Made by a program: the position numbers and the translations under genes. This document shows positions 462 through 31,306 of a stretch of DNA of 31,306 bases, piece after piece (position 1 is the first letter of the stretch; every line of letters starts with the position of its first letter). The notes beneath the pieces were generated by a model, which did no database searches, was not told the origin of the DNA, and saw only the letters and a list, made by a program, of their open reading frames with translations. Origin of the DNA: a virus; IMG/VR virus record IMGVR_UViG_3300031576_000230, positions 1 through 31,306 of that record; one strand, given 5' to 3'.

Positions 462-3002
462 ATGACAACGAAAACAGAAAGTCGGAACTATCTCCGGGAA
501 TTCGGGCGCCGCTTAATAGCAAACGGCTACAACCCGATCCCCATCCGCCCGGGCGACAAACGCCCCGGGATCGATAACTGGACCAGCATCCAAAGCACGT
601 TCGCAGACGTCGACGATTGGGCCGGCAACGGTTTCGCGTCGGCGTCGGTAGGCATCACCACGGGTAAGGTGCGCGGCGTCGATATCGACGTCCGGAACGC
701 TGAAATCACCGAATCGCTTGTCCGCTGGCTAGAACGCCGTTTCCCCGGCGTCGTGTTGCTACGTCGCACCGGCTGTGCGCCAAAAACCATGATCCTGTTC
801 CAATCGGAACCACGGGCCAAACGGCAATCGCCACGTTTTGTTGATCCGAACGGCGTCGAACACCTTGTCGAGTTTTACGGGCAGGGCCAACAGATCGTTG
901 CGTTCGGCCTGCATCCGGACACCGGCAAGGAATACCGCTGGCACGGCCAAACCCCGGCCGACGTTCCGCTATCGAAATTGCCGGTCCTGACTATCGACGC
1001 CGAAACCGAGCTGGTGAAGTTCTTCGAAGGCGTGGTCGCGATGGAACGCGACGACTGGAAATTGAAGTCGAAGGGATCGGCCGGGCTGACCGTCGTCAAG
1101 ACTGATGCCGACCCGGACGTCAAATTCGAAAACTTCGTTCACCCGCTGCGTGACATCGATTTGGACTCCGCTCGAGCGACGTTGGCCAAAGTCGACAACA
1201 CCGGGCCGGGAGTAGGGTACGACGAATGGTTTCAGATCGGCGCGGCCCTCTGGCATCAGTTCGCCGGCGCCGACGAAGCCTTCGAATTGTGGATGGAATT
1301 CTCGGAACGGTCCGACAAGCACGATCAAGAGCTCATGGCCCGAAAGTGGCGTTCGTTCAAGCCGGACTATTCCCGCGCACCGGTAACGTTTGCATCGGTG
1401 ATCAAGCTGGCAAAGCAGCACGCGGAAGACTCGCAGCGCGACACCGTCGACAAGTGGTTCCGGGAAATCGACAGCGCGAAAGACCTTTGGACCTTGAAAG
1501 ACATCGTCGGCCCGGCCATCGCTCGAGAAGACGACATCGAACCGACTATCCGGGAAATGTTGGCACAGCGCATCAAATCGAAATGGAAGTCAGTCACCGG
1601 AACCCCGATGTCCGTTGCCGACGCCCGGAAACTGGTTCGCGGCAAAAGCACGCCGACATCGTTTGAAGACGCACCCGATTGGCTGGCCGGCTGGGTTTAC
1701 GTGACCCAAGGCAATTTCTTTTTCAACGTGGACACGAAACGGGAGCTGGATCCCCAAGCGTTTCGCGCGACCTATGACCGGGAGCTGATTGCGTCGGCGG
1801 CAGACAACGGCACCGATGACGACGGCCCGGATCTGCGAGTCGATGCCTCCCGCCTGGCGGTCACCATCTGGGACGCTGCGACGGTCGACCATGTCGGCTA
1901 CAACCCGAAAGCCGGCCCGATCTTCGATATGCTCAGCAAGCGGTACGCCAACCTTTACGACCCCGACTCCATTCCCGATTCGAAAGACCCCGCCGGCTGG
2001 ACTGCGGGGGAGCGGCGCGCGGTCGCCGTCATCGAACGCCATTTCGAAATCATGTTCCCGCGCGAAGACGAACGCCGGATCGTGCTCGACTTCCTGGCTT
2101 ACTGCGTCCAGAACCCCGGGTCGAAAATCAAATGGGCGCTGTTTGTGCCGTCGGTCGAAGGGGCGGGCAAGGGCGCCATTTTGACGTTACTGGCTGCCGC
2201 TATGGGCCCGCGCAACGTGCAATCGCTATCGCCGCAGGCCTTAACCAAGGAATACAACGGCTGGGCCATTGGGCGCGCGTTTACGGTGCTAAACGAAATC
2301 CGGCTGAAAGGGCACAACCGGCACGACATCATCAACGCTATCAAGCCGATGATCTCCGACGACGAAATCAGCATCCGCCAGATGCAAAAGGACTGGTATC
2401 AGGCGCCGAACTTCACCAATTACATGGCGTTTTCCAATTTCTTCGATGGCATTCCGGAAAGTGAAGGCGGGCGCCGTTGGTGCATGATCGCCGCCGCCTT
2501 CCAAACAGCCAGCCAAATAGAAGGGTTCGAGAAAGCAAACCCGACTTACTTCCAAACCCTTTTCGATACCGTCGAAAACCAAGATTACTGGCCGACCTTT
2601 CGGGGTTGGTTCCTGTCCCGGGAGATCGACCCGGAGTTCAACCCGCGCGGCCGTGCACCGGCAACCCGCGGCACGCTCTTGATGAAAGAGCTGTCCAAAT
2701 CCGATTCGGAATTGGCCTTGGAAGACCTGGTCAGCGATGGCGCCGAAGGCGTCGGAAAGACCGCCCTGTCGTCAGCGCACGTCACCCGGATATTGAAGGC
2801 GAAGGGGGTCGACATCGCGACGACGACGGTCAATTCGTGGTTGCTGAAAGCCGGGTTCCAGCAGTTCAAGGTAGTGAAGTGGCGGGGCCTTTCTTGCCGC
2901 GCTTGGGTAAAGAGCGACCCGGACGATTGGACCGTCGAATCTGTCCGCGCCGCTCTTGATCGGTCTGCTTTGGAAGGGGCGAAGAATGAATTTCTCGACT
3001 GA
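462..3002 (+). CDS. Bifunctional primase-polymerase / D5-like helicase (phage replicase)
   Basis: This 846-residue protein (counted from ATG 462) combines an archaeo-eukaryotic primase (prim-pol) domain with a helicase. Residues 10-180 carry the prim-pol signature: a YNPIPIRPGDKRPG start, the metal-binding DID (D74, D76) and the FYGQGQQIVAFGLHP segment near the third motif. Residues about 230-310 resemble a PriCT-2 linker (GYDEWFQIGAALW, KWRSF). The C-terminal half contains a Walker A loop, EGAGKGA, with GAGKG at 567-571, then a VLNEIR Walker-B-like strand and SDDEISIRQM, as in phage/plasmid D5-like helicases (DUF5906 type). The role would be origin opening, priming and possibly synthesis. 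The frame is open back to GTG 387, but that start sits directly behind a hairpin that hides its Shine-Dalgarno sequence, and the domain begins naturally from ATG 462, so I chose the latter. The iteron-like repeats just downstream fit an initiator role. Confidence 0.85.
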   Translation: MTTKTESRNYLREFGRRLIANGYNPIPIRPGDKRPGIDNWTSIQSTFADVDDWAGNGFASASVGITTGKVRGVDIDVRNAEITESLVRWLERRFPGVVLLRRTGCAPKTMILFQSEPRAKRQSPRFVDPNGVEHLVEFYGQGQQIVAFGLHPDTGKEYRWHGQTPADVPLSKLPVLTIDAETELVKFFEGVVAMERDDWKLKSKGSAGLTVVKTDADPDVKFENFVHPLRDIDLDSARATLAKVDNTGPGVGYDEWFQIGAALWHQFAGADEAFELWMEFSERSDKHDQELMARKWRSFKPDYSRAPVTFASVIKLAKQHAEDSQRDTVDKWFREIDSAKDLWTLKDIVGPAIAREDDIEPTIREMLAQRIKSKWKSVTGTPMSVADARKLVRGKSTPTSFEDAPDWLAGWVYVTQGNFFFNVDTKRELDPQAFRATYDRELIASAADNGTDDDGPDLRVDASRLAVTIWDAATVDHVGYNPKAGPIFDMLSKRYANLYDPDSIPDSKDPAGWTAGERRAVAVIERHFEIMFPREDERRIVLDFLAYCVQNPGSKIKWALFVPSVEGAGKGAILTLLAAAMGPRNVQSLSPQALTKEYNGWAIGRAFTVLNEIRLKGHNRHDIINAIKPMISDDEISIRQMQKDWYQAPNFTNYMAFSNFFDGIPESEGGRRWCMIAAAFQTASQIEGFEKANPTYFQTLFDTVENQDYWPTFRGWFLSREIDPEFNPRGRAPATRGTLLMKELSKSDSELALEDLVSDGAEGVGKTALSSAHVTRILKAKGVDIATTTVNSWLLKAGFQQFKVVKWRGLSCRAWVKSDPDDWTVESVRAALDRSALEGAKNEFLD

Positions 3003-3017
3003 AAATAATTCCCTGAG

Positions 3018-3252
3018 CGCGGTTACAAGTCGCGGTTACAAGTTGGCGATTTGGCCGTCTAAACCGCTATCGTCGTTTGCGAGTATTTTCCGACGTATTT
3101 TCGCCGGAAATTCAATAAATAGCCCGGCGAATTATTCGCGGGTTACAAGTTGGCCGGACAGCACTTGTAACCTACTTGTAACCGCAACTTGTAACCGCGC
3201 TAAGCATTTGTTTCTTCTTCCTTTTTATTTATCGGTTACAAGAGTTACAAGT
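3018..3252. repeat. GGTTACAAGT iterons (eight copies, both orientations)
   Basis: CGCGGTTACAAGT occurs as a perfect 13-bp tandem pair at 3018-3030 and 3031-3043. A third copy on the same strand is at 3141-3150. On the other strand ACTTGTAACC is at 3163-3172, 3174-3183 and 3187-3196, the last two again 13 bp apart, so the two arrays face each other. Single-mismatch copies are at 3234-3243 (GGTTACAAGA) and 3243-3252 (AGTTACAAGT). The constant 13-bp step and opposed arrays suggest ordered loading of a DNA-binding protein. Confidence 0.85.
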
Positions 3253-3393
3253 AGTAAGGGATTAGATCGGAAGAAAAAAGAAAATGGAAAAATAAATCGT
3301 AATAAATACGGTTGTACCCGAATACAAAACATTTTTAAAACGCAGAAAGCGATGGAGGGTTTCACTTGTAACTTGAAACCGGCGAATTATTCG
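3124..3393 (+). repeat. 15-bp direct repeat bracketing the origin core
   Basis: CCGGCGAATTATTCG occurs identically at 3124-3138 and 3379-3393. The first copy is followed by the GGTTACAAGT iteron at 3141. The second is preceded by the degenerate iterons at 3364-3380. The two copies bracket the inverted iteron array and the AT-rich segment, so the origin may have a second class of binding site besides the iterons. Confidence 0.7.
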
Positions 3394-3431
3394 AAATTGC
3401 CGCCGACTTTGTTTTTGGAAGGGGGCGAGCC

Positions 3432-3776
3432 ATGGCTCGCCTGACCCCTGCAATCGCCCGGATGCCGGACGAAGAAGTGTTCAATCCGGACGGGTCGCCC
3501 CGTCTGCCGATGGTGCCGGGTTCGACGATGTCGCTTGCCGCAACCACGTTTGGGAAATTCCCAACAGACGTTCTCGCACTGGCCGCAGAGACAACGGAAT
3601 CGGCAATTCGGCAGGCCGCCCGCCGGCTTGGCATCCGTCGGCGATTAAGTCGCGAAGACCGGTTGTTGGTCCTGGCGTTGCGCAGTGGGGACAAGCCGTT
3701 GCCCTTGCGCGTTGTGGCTGAAAAATTCGATGTTTCGCACCAAACGATCTCGAATATCGAAAAGGCGGGCCGGTGA
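3432..3776 (+). CDS. Small helix-turn-helix DNA-binding protein
   Basis: This 114-residue protein starts at ATG 3432 behind a strong GGAAGGGGG (about 3417-3425). The last 25 residues read as a helix-turn-helix (LRVVAEKFDVSHQTISNIEK), preceded by basic residues (RRLGIRRRLSREDRL). The N-terminal half (VPGSTMSLAATTFGKFP) is not recognised. It lies between the putative origin and the late-regulator gene, whose ATG overlaps its stop codon by one base, so the two are probably translationally coupled. It could bind the adjacent iterons or regulate early transcription; neither is shown by the sequence. Confidence 0.65.
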   Translation: MARLTPAIARMPDEEVFNPDGSPRLPMVPGSTMSLAATTFGKFPTDVLALAAETTESAIRQAARRLGIRRRLSREDRLLVLALRSGDKPLPLRVVAEKFDVSHQTISNIEKAGR

Positions 3777-6908: not shown

Positions 6909-7712
6909 ATGGCGAAGTTAGGGGTGTTCGACTCGAACGCGTTTCCAAAAACGTGGTTTGATCAGACCGCAGTCCCTTCCGGTTGGTTCGCGGACGACAC
7001 GATTGATGTTGTCGGTTCGGGGGCGTCGACAGTTCAACAGGATTCGACGATTCAGTCGTCCGGCGTTATCGCGGTACAGCAAGACGCAGTAATTCAGTCG
7101 TCTGGCGTATCGACCGCGCAACAGGATTCGACGATTCAATCCGACGGGGCCTCGTCGGCGACAGCGGTACAGCAAGACGCAGTAATTCAGTCGTCTGGCG
7201 TATCGACCGCGCAACAGGATTCGACGATTCAGTCTTCGGGTTTGGCAACGGCGCAGCAAGACGCAGTAGTTCAGTCGTCCGGCCCTGGCGTGGTTTTCGC
7301 CGATTTGGATATCCGCGCTAGCGGGGTCTTTCCGGTACAGCAAGACGCGGTAATTCAGTCGTCCGGCGTATCGACCGCACAACAGGATTCGACGATTCAG
7401 TCGTCCGGCGTTGTCAGTGCGCAGCAAGACGCGACTATCCGGTCATCGGGGACTCATTACGTCGACAATGTTGTCGAATTTAAGTTCTCTGCGGTCGCGG
7501 CGGCCCAACAGGATGCGACAGTTTGGTTTGATCTGAATTCGACGATCATCCTGGCGGCGTCTGAAACGATAGTCGCCGACGAAGATATCCGAACTGTCTT
7601 TGCGGTGACAAAAGACGGGCGTGTTTCGGCGCAATCCGAATCACTCTCAGTAGTTTCGAACGAAAATAACCGAGTTCAAGCGCGGGCAGACGCGCGGGCC
7701 ATCGCAGCATAG
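6909..7712 (+). CDS. 14-residue-repeat phage fibre-like protein
   Basis: This 267-residue protein starts immediately after the previous stop. Residues 1-40 carry an aromatic motif (WFDQTAVPSGWFADD) of the kind found at the start of phage fibre or adaptor proteins. From residue 43 to about 213 it is built of 14-residue repeats with consensus QQDAVIQSSGVSTA. About ten copies contain QQD. Two double-length intervals are exactly 28 residues, meaning they hide degenerate copies. One interval is 17. Some copies alternate DAVIQ and DSTIQ, giving an 84-bp higher-order repeat in the DNA. The C-terminal 55 residues continue with weak periodicity and end in ARADARAIAA. The repeats suggest a stacked beta structure; that and the virion location are inference. 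Confidence 0.65.
   Translation: MAKLGVFDSNAFPKTWFDQTAVPSGWFADDTIDVVGSGASTVQQDSTIQSSGVIAVQQDAVIQSSGVSTAQQDSTIQSDGASSATAVQQDAVIQSSGVSTAQQDSTIQSSGLATAQQDAVVQSSGPGVVFADLDIRASGVFPVQQDAVIQSSGVSTAQQDSTIQSSGVVSAQQDATIRSSGTHYVDNVVEFKFSAVAAAQQDATVWFDLNSTIILAASETIVADEDIRTVFAVTKDGRVSAQSESLSVVSNENNRVQARADARAIAA
7035..7511 (+). repeat. 42-bp / 84-bp tandem repeats in the fibre-like gene
   Basis: The repeat unit is 42 bp and alternate units are the most alike, so the effective period is 84 bp. CAACAGGATTCGACGATTCA recurs almost unchanged near 7035, 7119, 7213 and 7379. CAGCAAGACGCAGTAATTCA occurs near 7077 and 7170, with near copies at 7254 and 7338. Near-identity at DNA level implies recent expansion or gene conversion and makes the region prone to copy-number change. 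Confidence 0.8.
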
Positions 7713-9052: not shown

Positions 9053-10437
9053 GCGTTGTTGCCGTGGCGATTCGTCCGCAACCGCGCCAGGCGACGTTAA
9101 TTTCCTGCCCGGTCAACGAAATTCTGTACGGCGGCGCCCGTGGTGGCGGCAAGTCATACGGCGCTTTGCTCGATTGGCTGGCGCACGCGGAAATGTGGGG
9201 CGCAGACGCGAAAGGGATTCTGTTCCGGCGAACTATGCCGGAACTTGAAGACATGATGTCAAAAGCATCAGATATCTTTCCACGTCATGGCGGCGTTTTC
9301 AAAGAACAGAAAAAGACCTGGATTTTTCCGAACGGCGCGCGGTTAAAGCTTCGGTATCTGGAGCGCGACAAACACGCGTCGCGATATCAGGGTCATGAAT
9401 ACACCTGGATTTGTTTTGAAGAGGCCGGACAGTGGCCGTCTTCGAAGCCGCTTGACGCGTTGAAAGCGTGTTTACGTTCGGCGGCTGGGGTGTCTTCGAG
9501 AATGATCCTCACCGCGAATCCGGGCGGTGTCGGCCATAACTGGCTAAAGCGTCGGTTCATCGACCCCGTTCCGCCAATGCGGGCGCAGTATCTAGCCGGC
9601 GGCTGGACTCGCGTGTATATCCCGGCAACGGTGCAAGACAACGTAATTCTGTTGAAGAACGATCCGGGCTATGTCGAACGGATCGCGCAAGCGGCATCGA
9701 ATCCGCAAATGCTCCGCGCCTGGTTGCACGGGGATTGGGACATCGTCGCCGGCGGCATGATCGATGACCTTTGGAATGGCGGGGTTCACGTTCTCGAGCC
9801 GTTCGCGATTCCGTCGTCGTGGCGGGTTTTCCGGGCCTTCGACTGGGGTTCGGCCAAGCCGTTTTCTGTCGGTTGGTGGGCAGTTTCCGACGGCACCGAA
9901 GTGGAAGTCGCCTCGGGCAAGAAACGCACCTTCCCTCGAGGGTCGCATTTCCGGGTAGGCGAGTGGTACGGCGCGAAACCAGACGAAGCCAACGTCGGCT
10001 TGAAGATGACCGCAAAAGAAATCGCGCGGGGGATTCGGGAGCGCGAAACCGGCTTTGCCTGGGGCTCGCGGGTACAGCCAGGGCCGGCGGACTCTTCGAT
10101 CTTCGATGTTGAAAACGGAGTTTGCATCGCCGCCGATATGGAAGCCGCCGGCGTCGCTTGGGAAAGGGCCGATAAGCGCCCCGGCTCCCGGAAAAATGGC
10201 GCTGAAAAAATACGCGAACTATTGAAGGCCGCTACGGTTCATCCGATGGAATCGCCCGGCCTTTTCATTTTTTCAACGTGTCGGTCCTTCATCGCCTTGG
10301 TGCCGATTATCCCTCGCGATGAAAACAATCCGGATGATGTCGACACGAAAGCCGAAGATCACAACTGGGACGAAACGCGATACGCGGTCACCCAACAGGA
10401 CTACACAATGCAGAAAACAAAGGTTGCGGGGGTCTAA
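8992..10437 (+). CDS. terL: Terminase large subunit (ATPase and nuclease)
   Basis: The product has 481 residues from ATG 8992. The ATPase domain shows a Walker A GGARGGGKS (47-55) and a Walker B ICFEEA (140-145), followed by the coupling strand ILTANPGG. The RNase-H-like nuclease domain shows acidic residues in FDWG (D284), GPADSSIFD (D367) and DHNWDE (455-460). Together these are the packaging motor and headful or site cutting activities. The start is uncertain: ATG 8992 lies inside the small subunit gene, while GTG 9064 just after the small subunit stop would give a protein 24 residues shorter with a conventional N-terminus (VAIRPQPRQ). Neither has a strong ribosome binding site. Confidence 0.93.
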   Translation: MGSASAQRKPYYPGKRLPRLSVVAVAIRPQPRQATLISCPVNEILYGGARGGGKSYGALLDWLAHAEMWGADAKGILFRRTMPELEDMMSKASDIFPRHGGVFKEQKKTWIFPNGARLKLRYLERDKHASRYQGHEYTWICFEEAGQWPSSKPLDALKACLRSAAGVSSRMILTANPGGVGHNWLKRRFIDPVPPMRAQYLAGGWTRVYIPATVQDNVILLKNDPGYVERIAQAASNPQMLRAWLHGDWDIVAGGMIDDLWNGGVHVLEPFAIPSSWRVFRAFDWGSAKPFSVGWWAVSDGTEVEVASGKKRTFPRGSHFRVGEWYGAKPDEANVGLKMTAKEIARGIRERETGFAWGSRVQPGPADSSIFDVENGVCIAADMEAAGVAWERADKRPGSRKNGAEKIRELLKAATVHPMESPGLFIFSTCRSFIALVPIIPRDENNPDDVDTKAEDHNWDETRYAVTQQDYTMQKTKVAGV

Positions 10438-29688: not shown

Positions 29689-30606
29689 TCAGGTGATTTT
29701 TTCTTGCCGCCAGTTTCGCCACCACGTCAGGATCATGCCGGTTGCAGTCAAGCCCGCAATCACAATCAACAGGGCACCGAGCAACGAGAGGGGATGTATC
29801 GGCTCGCGCCACAGCAGCCAACCCAACGCAAAGGCGAATACCACTTGGGTGTAGCCCCAGGCGCCGATGCGGCTGGGTGGCGCCAGCATGAAGGCGCGGG
29901 TCATCAACATTTGGCCGAGCGCAGCGGTGACACCCAGGCCAAGCAAAGCAGGCCAGTCGCCGGCAACGATCGGTTGCCATTGCAGCAAGGCGGGACCAGC
30001 GGTAATGACGGTACTAATCAAGCTGAAATAGAACACGATCATATGCGCAGTTTCGTTGTCCGACATTCTCCGGATGGTCACTTTGGAACCGGCCGCGAGC
30101 ATCGCACCGAGCAAACCGAGCAGAAACGCGGGTGAAAACGTTTCTGCATCCGGCCGGATAACCAGCACGACGCCGGCAAGGCCAATCAATCCAGAAAATA
30201 GATAGCGTTTTTTGAATTCATCACCGAGCCAGAAATAGGCAATGACCGGAATCCAGATGGGTGCGGTCTGCGCCAGTAGTGTGACTTCTCCTAGTGGCAG
30301 TACGCCGAGGCAGTAGAAGTACAGATACATGGAGATGATGCCGGTTGTCGACCGGAGCAGGTGAAAGCGCAACTTGTCGCGCCAGAGATTTTCGCTAGTG
30401 AAGCTGAATTTACCGCGAGCGAATAAGTAGGGCAGTAACAGTAGCAAGGCGAACAGATTGCGAAAAAAAACGATTTGGGCATTGCTGTAATGCGGCGCCA
30501 AATGTTTGACCAGCGCGCCGAGCAGCGTGAAAACGAGTTCGGACAGCAGCAAGAGCAGGGTGCCCCGGGCAATCAATGAACTGCCCGAGCGAGGCGTGAG
30601 CGACAT
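29689..30606 (-). CDS. DMT-family transporter (EamA type), host gene
   Basis: The product has 305 residues; the ATG complement is at 30604-30606. It has two EamA repeats with about ten transmembrane helices, starting GTLLLLLSELVFTLLGALVK and ending LLGALLIVIAGLTATGMIL. Internal marks of the family include YFYCLGVLPLGEVTLLAQTAP and the second-repeat ARAFMLAPPSRIGAWGYTQV-type loop. These inner-membrane proteins export metabolites or amino acids; the substrate cannot be told from sequence. It is the first gene outside the prophage and is intact, so integration did not interrupt it. It is encoded opposite to the phage operon and convergent with it. Confidence 0.9.
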   Translation of the reverse strand: MSLTPRSGSSLIARGTLLLLLSELVFTLLGALVKHLAPHYSNAQIVFFRNLFALLLLLPYLFARGKFSFTSENLWRDKLRFHLLRSTTGIISMYLYFYCLGVLPLGEVTLLAQTAPIWIPVIAYFWLGDEFKKRYLFSGLIGLAGVVLVIRPDAETFSPAFLLGLLGAMLAAGSKVTIRRMSDNETAHMIVFYFSLISTVITAGPALLQWQPIVAGDWPALLGLGVTAALGQMLMTRAFMLAPPSRIGAWGYTQVVFAFALGWLLWREPIHPLSLLGALLIVIAGLTATGMILTWWRNWRQEKIT

Positions 30607-30754
30607 GAGGAAACCGGTAAAACGGCGAAGATCCGTCGCGGATTATACGCTGTTGGCCAAAGGCTCGTTCGATCGCAGCAACGACCAGGGCATGCTGACA
30701 TTCAACGCCGCGTTGTGGCGAGTGTGAACAGGCACTGGTAGAACAAATCCATCT

Positions 30755-31306
30755 TTACTCCATGGCGCGGGCTATCGGCCGTGAAGGATCGGTAATCCAC
30801 TCACTCCATGAACCTGGGTAAAGACGCGCCGGCTTCAGGCCCGCGAGCGCCATGGTAAAGATACTGTGACAGGCGGAGACGCCGGAGCCGCAATAGCTGA
30901 CCGCATTGTCGCCCACCGCAGCGTAGCGTTGCTGCAACTGTTCGGGGGGTAAGAAATGGTTGTTGTGGTCCAGGTTGCCAGAAAATGGCAGGTTGATCGC
31001 ACCCGGAATATGGCCGGCGACCGGATCGATGGGTTCTTCTTTGCCTTGATACCGCGCCGGACCGCGTACATCAAAAATAACGCGACCGAGGTCCGCCGCC
31101 AGCAAATCGTCTGCTTCCACAGTCAGATCCGCTTGAAGCTCACCGATAAAGGGCTGTGCCTGCACGGCAACGTCCCCTGGTTCGGTCGGATATCCGGCCG
31201 CTTGCCAGGCCGGATATCCGCCATCGAGCAACTGGCAGTTATCGTGGCCAAGCCAGCGTAGCAGCCACCAAAGTCTGCTCGCATAAACGCCGCCCGCGTC
31301 GTCGTA
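30755..31306 (-). CDS. sseA: 3-mercaptopyruvate / thiosulfate sulfurtransferase (partial, N-terminus outside window)
   Basis: The frame is open from the window edge for 183 residues to TAA (30755-30757 on the complement). It covers the end of the first rhodanese domain (YDDAGGVYASRLWWLLRWLG, LLDGGYPAW) and the whole second one (FDVRGPARYQGKEEPIDPV, AGHIPGAINLPF). The active-site loop reads YCGSGVSA; CGSGV(T/S)A is typical of mercaptopyruvate sulfurtransferases, while thiosulfate enzymes usually have CRKGVT. It transfers sulfur from 3-mercaptopyruvate to thiophilic acceptors in the cytoplasm. The 148-base gap to the transporter on the same strand shows no clear terminator or promoter by eye. 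The symbol is by family; substrate is inferred. Confidence 0.85.
   Translation of the reverse strand, partial: YDDAGGVYASRLWWLLRWLGHDNCQLLDGGYPAWQAAGYPTEPGDVAVQAQPFIGELQADLTVEADDLLAADLGRVIFDVRGPARYQGKEEPIDPVAGHIPGAINLPFSGNLDHNNHFLPPEQLQQRYAAVGDNAVSYCGSGVSACHSIFTMALAGLKPARLYPGSWSEWITDPSRPIARAME

Follow-up and report, generated by a model that had tools for sequence, protein, structure and literature searches.

A repeated decamer behind a Prim-Pol/DUF5906 gene is a probable phage replication origin whose word varies with the winged helix of the replication protein

A viral DNA sequence of 31,306 nucleotides (IMG/VR record IMGVR_UViG_3300031576_000230, positions 1 to 31,306; hereafter the window) harbours, between the gene for a large replication protein and the gene for an HTH protein (3432-3776), many copies of the 10-mer GGTTACAAGT in both orientations. 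What purpose do these repeats serve, and which protein reads them? A sequence-only reading had taken them for an iteron-type replication origin. This proposal gained support from the conservation of the repeats beside homologous genes and from a recurring layout around an AT-rich segment, and the array at 3021-3380 is in our judgement very probably the replication origin of the phage, read by the Prim-Pol/DUF5906 protein encoded upstream through its C-terminal winged helix.

The window also contains a CII-like gene (60-356, Pfam/PHROG matches) and a frame (6909-7712) whose translation repeats peptide units of the VQQDxxIQSSG type. Genes that by eye look bacterial (EamA-type transporter, sulfurtransferase) were found at 29689-31306 and point to a prophage whose right border is near 29.4-29.7 kb and whose left border falls outside the record.

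Searched without bias for its most repeated 10-mer, the DNA behind the replication gene returned GGTTACAAGT, with a score of 8.4 against a shuffle maximum of 2.8. Exactly ten matches are present in the 31-kb window, six exact and four with one mismatch, as had been claimed, and all of them are located at 3021-3380; the expectation for the whole 31 kb is 1.13 (sd 0.97, maximum 4 in 100 shuffles). The copies lie on both strands, in agreement with the opposed orientations described earlier. Block A' consists of two exact iterons on the plus strand at 3021 and 3034 (3021-3043), followed by a single exact plus-strand iteron (3141-3150). Block A holds three exact iterons on the minus strand at 3163, 3174 and 3187 (3163-3196), block B two one-mismatch iterons on the plus strand at 3234 and 3243 (3234-3252), starting 47 b past the start of the last block A copy, and block C two one-mismatch iterons on the minus strand at 3364 and 3371 (3364-3380). 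The step of 13 bp ascribed to the arrays holds for A' and for one step in A, whereas the within-block steps in order are 13, 11, 13, 9 and 7. The interval between the inverted blocks B and C (3253-3363) is 67% AT, and most 30-bp windows of 3200-3335 reach 70-83% AT against about 43% window-wide, so that the AT-rich segment pointed out previously is real. Treating the array as non-coding is reasonable but unproven, as a 162-aa frame with a TTG start (2956-3444) spans it.

The second repeat, the 15-mer CCGGCGAATTATTCG, is exact in both copies on the plus strand (3124-3138 and 3379-3393), as reported before. The copies flank most of the array, the second abuts block C, and the 15-mer occurs nowhere else in the window. 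Both copies contain the near-palindrome CGAATtATTCG, and the 15-mer is possibly a second binding site; as a component of the origin it was not recovered in the conserved design of the relatives.

Since A' and A are inverted, the window strand can form a long hairpin. The inverted repeat (3013-3204) has 34-nt arms at 3013-3046 and 3171-3204 that are 91% complementary, and as single-stranded DNA the array region folds far better than shuffled sequences (z -6.25). None of the 21 relatives compared has a stem of this quality; their inverted arms are mostly iteron pairs of 9-20 nt in varying positions, and often pair B with C around a loop that holds the AT-rich segment. Neither a sigma-70-like promoter nor a terminator was found in the array, and a change in GC skew, which had been suggested as a mark of the origin, did not appear as a change of sign there. 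The DnaA box TTATNCACA, allowing one mismatch, had no match within 4 kb of the array, and a DnaA-dependent origin of the iteron plasmid kind was rejected on the lack of a DnaA box beside the iterons.

The gene upstream of the array (462-3002, plus strand) encodes a protein of 846 aa, the proposed initiator, with Pfam/PHROG matches to Prim-Pol (PF09250), PriCT_2 (PF08707) and the DUF5906 helicase (PF19263), followed by a C-terminal winged helix (about residues 746-825, encoded at 2697-2936 on the plus strand). The protein thus combines a helicase core, by its DUF5906 match, with a C-terminal DNA-binding domain, by the winged-helix model, and its primase is of the archaeo-eukaryotic Prim-Pol type, not of the Toprim/DnaG type. 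A solved-structure match was the 'Primase' 6k9e/6k9c (E 0.0013), which we take to be NrS-1 polymerase. An AlphaFold2 model of residues 700-846, built from 27 aligned sequences, displayed a winged helix with a mean pLDDT of 89 and values of 94-97 over the domain; in it the recognition helix spans about residues 787-796 and the wing strands residues 800-807 and 810-816. The structural matches to this model were nearly all winged-helix DNA-binding proteins or regulators, with modest Z scores up to 6.1; they support the predicted fold, not a function. A profile search with the C-terminal part against PDB sequences gave nothing credible, and the structure of the P4 origin-binding domain was not among the structural matches listed.

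When 2.9 million viral contigs were scanned, with no protein information, for pairs of decamers within 14 b of each other, 19 contigs were returned. Ten of these, from about eight distinct phages, carried the array beside a gene homologous to that of the replication protein, at 24-35% identity, and in an eleventh (L009) the array begins directly behind a D5-type primase-helicase gene. The remaining contigs were mainly matches in coding sequences; the decamer pairs of L006, L007, L013 and L023, inside large coding frames, were set aside as chance. A scan of genome contigs with pattern A3 gave two loci. Conversely, 80 DUF5906 relatives were fetched by protein and the most repeated 10-mer was sought behind each gene. 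A significant array was detected downstream of 38 of the 52 non-redundant DUF5906 genes, against 10 of 104 control windows drawn from the same loci, where the arrays were mostly weaker; 14 of the 52 genes were without one. The occurrence of repeats beside prim-pol genes of related phages, offered earlier as a check on the origin proposal, was therefore observed even in distant relatives. As a positive control, the same search recovered the known type I iteron GGTGAACAGT of phage P4.

The word itself varies between lineages (AGGTTACAAG, AGGTAACAAG, AGGTTCGAGG, AGGTGCGCGA, AGGCCCCGAA, AGGGGAACAG and others; AGGTCCGAAT in the Burkholderia phages AH2 and BcepNazgul), with GGTTA shared between the words. 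Two DUF5906 helicases (L012 and L014) had the same decamer as the window, while their N-terminal half is dissimilar and gave no detectable Prim-Pol domain; L009 likewise had the same decamer and no detectable Prim-Pol domain. The position of the array can also differ: it lies upstream of the replication gene in L021/L110 and is displaced to about 1.4 kb downstream of the DUF5906 gene in L104/L105. Second repeat classes were noticed in two loci, with nine copies of AGCGTTGATG directly behind the DUF5906 gene of L105 and eight copies of AAATCAACA beside the iterons of L010. In Bordetella phage BPP-1 (L114), where a stem-loop has been proposed at the replication gene bbp29 (PMC4234260), AACGAGGCAA was seen in four exact copies, arranged as two inverted pairs, 467-570 b past the end of bbp29, in the intergenic stretch behind the gene that follows it.

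The arrangement of the words recurs from locus to locus: a block A, about 47 b, an inverted block B, an AT-rich interval of about 85-130 b, and a block C. With AGG taken as the beginning of each word, divergent pairs (a minus-strand copy followed by a plus-strand copy, the A-B type) were never closer than 20 b, and 19 fell at 45-49 b against a strand-shuffled mean of 6.1 (maximum 13 of 500). Convergent pairs (the B-C type) were concentrated at 95-125 b, with 18 at 110-114 b against a shuffled mean of 5.0 (maximum 11). The distance from A to B was 44-50 b in most loci and otherwise 54-61 b, about one helical turn longer, and that from B to C was 86-129 b; the window has 47 and 121 b, and L166, a held-out phage of the L009 type, 48 and 120 b. 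The AT content was 71% in A-B intervals and 66% in B-C intervals compared with 49% in genes, and the B-C interval was more AT-rich than the gene in 29 of 31 loci. Of the 38 loci with a significant array, 20, only about half, have the full module (strand-shuffle mean 3.7, maximum 10); among the 21 held-out loci it occurs in 7 (null mean 1.2, maximum 5 of 1000). Because related loci are counted separately, these layout counts overstate independence.

The divergence of the word was compared with that of the parts of the protein. Among 36 loci, the distance between words correlated with the distance between winged helices (r 0.485; partial value 0.415 with the helicase accounted for; permutation p 0.003, the floor of the test), whereas the helicase given the winged helix added no signal (partial -0.05). 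Divergence of the Prim-Pol domain was weakly related to that of the word (r 0.19; partial 0.11 given the winged helix, p 0.06). Measured by these sequence distances, word divergence follows the winged helix and not the helicase or the primase, and the C-terminal domain is the part that appears to specify the iteron.

Within the winged helix, one position stood out. Residue 788, the second residue of the recognition helix and a Thr in the window protein, was first linked to the word by eye in the alignment; when all 765 alignment columns were scanned afterwards, it ranked first in separating CG-type from ACA-type words (MI 1.0; next column 0.784). In the first set, all 17 loci with Ser, Asn or Thr at 788 had a word without CG and 13 of 15 with Lys or Arg had a word with CG. 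As the word classes had been defined after seeing data, new loci were fetched as a held-out set, in which 4/4 and 9/11 loci followed the same pattern (total 13/15, Fisher p 0.011), with CG counted inside the 10-mer alone, a restriction that was likewise set after seeing data. A count that included the bases flanking the 10-mer was discarded; it made the window and L095 false exceptions. The exceptions were L026 and L032 in the first set, L120 in the held-out set, and L124, which has TGCA instead of CG in its word. On a helicase tree, from which the winged helix was left out, about six independent pairs changed residue 788 and word together and none oppositely (sign test p about 0.03). L176, a genome locus added later, has, by eye, Lys at 788 and the word TATCCGGCGA. 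Contacts between Lys or Arg and guanine are common in DNA recognition, which makes the rule chemically plausible. The wing residue R813 was tried as a determinant and rejected: it split the first set 14/14 versus 1/14, but the held-out Ser/Asn loci lacked Arg there.

From these observations we infer the following course of initiation. The Prim-Pol/DUF5906 protein encoded upstream would use its C-terminal winged helix to bind the decamers. Ring helicases would be loaded in opposite orientations at A and B, which are inverted and separated by about 4.5 helical turns. Melting would follow in the AT-rich stretch of 85-130 b that lies between B and the inverted C, a candidate unwinding segment by its composition and flanks, and the Prim-Pol domain would then prime on the strands thus exposed.

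Short repeated sites in both orientations are also compatible with a repressor, and the window encodes two candidates for one: the CII-like regulator, and the HTH protein, whose gene begins 52 b past the last iteron. The repeats could then be operators through which either protein controls downstream genes, and the HTH protein had been named, next to the primase-helicase, as a candidate for binding this DNA. It has, however, no homologue in any fetched relative or in the phage collection, and neither it nor the CII-like protein has a detectable relative in the fetched loci, although these loci conserve the decamer. In L035, L022, L050 and L059 a gene of another kind follows the array, the array lacks a recognisable sigma-70-like promoter, and the word co-varies with the replication protein; we therefore regard control by these regulators as improbable. 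Regulation by the replication protein itself is harder to set apart, as co-variation, not initiation, is what the sequence evidence documents, and an autoregulatory operator of that protein would lead one to expect it equally. In P4, one protein uses two iteron regions, ori and crr, the latter behind the alpha gene, and the array might correspondingly consist of non-initiating autoregulatory or incompatibility sites, with the true origin elsewhere. That is unlikely in our estimation: no further iteron cluster was found in the 31-kb window, though the left end of the record appears incomplete, and the AT-rich B-C interval with its inverted flanks is what an origin needs.

The strong fold of the region and its 34-nt inverted repeat recall the stem-loop proposed for proteins with a primase, SF3 helicase and winged helix (PMC4234260), and the protein might recognise a hairpin, as in pRN1, instead of a repeated word. 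What the relatives conserve is nevertheless the word and its spacing, not a stem of the window's quality, and a hairpin origin is very improbable here. There is still less to be said for the decamers being template start sites for synthesis by the Prim-Pol domain. NrS-1 polymerase does start at a specific sequence, TTTGGTTA (PMC8718748), and the words have GGTTA in common; but TTTGGTTA with up to one mismatch is unmatched inside the array, the same decamer accompanies proteins in which Prim-Pol is not detected (L012, L014 and L009), and the word follows Prim-Pol divergence weakly. We consider such priming sites extremely improbable.

An origin read by the C-terminal domain of its own replication protein has precedents. 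According to PMC7581432, SaPI Rep and SCCmec Cch2 are staphylococcal self-loading initiator helicases whose C-terminal domains bind iterons directly downstream of their own genes, with binding as two hexamers proposed, and the principle of a self-reading initiator is thereby already known. As in the SaPI Rep-ori system of that account, the window has short repeats arrayed immediately behind the gene of the putative initiator, a helicase with a putative C-terminal iteron reader (SaPI5 Rep also has a primase) and, in the B-C interval, an AT-rich segment flanked by iterons. The staphylococcal systems differ in their hosts and in helicases described there as of DUF927 or D5_N/Primase_Cterm type, and neither a three-block spacing nor a residue-word correspondence was found in the passages of PMC7581432 consulted.

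P4 alpha (L113) similarly unites primase, helicase and C-terminal origin binding in one protein; the inverted type I iterons of P4 likewise begin with GGT, and an inverted step of 45 b is present in its ori (9351 to 9396). It differs in its DnaG/Toprim-type primase (PMC4234260), in a C-terminal sequence without simple alignment in the recognition helix, and in having a separate crr behind the alpha gene with ori elsewhere, compared with the one cluster of the window, which comes from a record whose left end seems to be missing. ORF904 of pRN1 has Prim-Pol, SF3 helicase and winged helix in one protein and an origin just downstream of the replication gene (PMC4234260). The pRN1 origin is described as a stem-loop without iterons (PMC4234260), unlike the repeated word with recurring spacing conserved here; we suggest that this stem-loop might be readable as such a pair of inverted sites. 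NrS-1 shares a Prim-Pol with a distantly related helicase domain and sequence-specific initiation (PMC8718748, PMC7102993), although its known site is a single-strand priming site with no occurrence in the window array.

In the open-access literature we found no mapped origin for the phages examined, and no description of the decamer in a phage origin, of an A-B-C spacing conserved across words that have turned over, or of the residue-788 rule. The novelty of the spacing and of the rule is provisional, the search having covered open-access literature only.

A wider proposition may be true or false with about equal probability, judged from the loci compared: that a single origin module is common to DUF5906 phages, several Casjensviridae among them, in which A and an inverted B are separated by about 47 or 57 b and followed by an AT-rich interval and a block C, and that its word has been replaced many times as the recognition helix changed with it, Lys/Arg788 going with a CG word and Ser/Asn/Thr788 with a CG-free word, so that the origin and aspects of its word would be predictable from the protein. 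If true, the origins of dozens to hundreds of such phages would become locatable from sequence, and the phages would provide a natural series of initiator/origin pairs in which specificity has changed and spacing has not. The two A-B distances (about 47 and 57 b), which differ by one helical turn, would bear on structures of double-ring loading. For related primase-helicase replicons, to which a stem-loop has been ascribed, an origin built on iterons would become an alternative.
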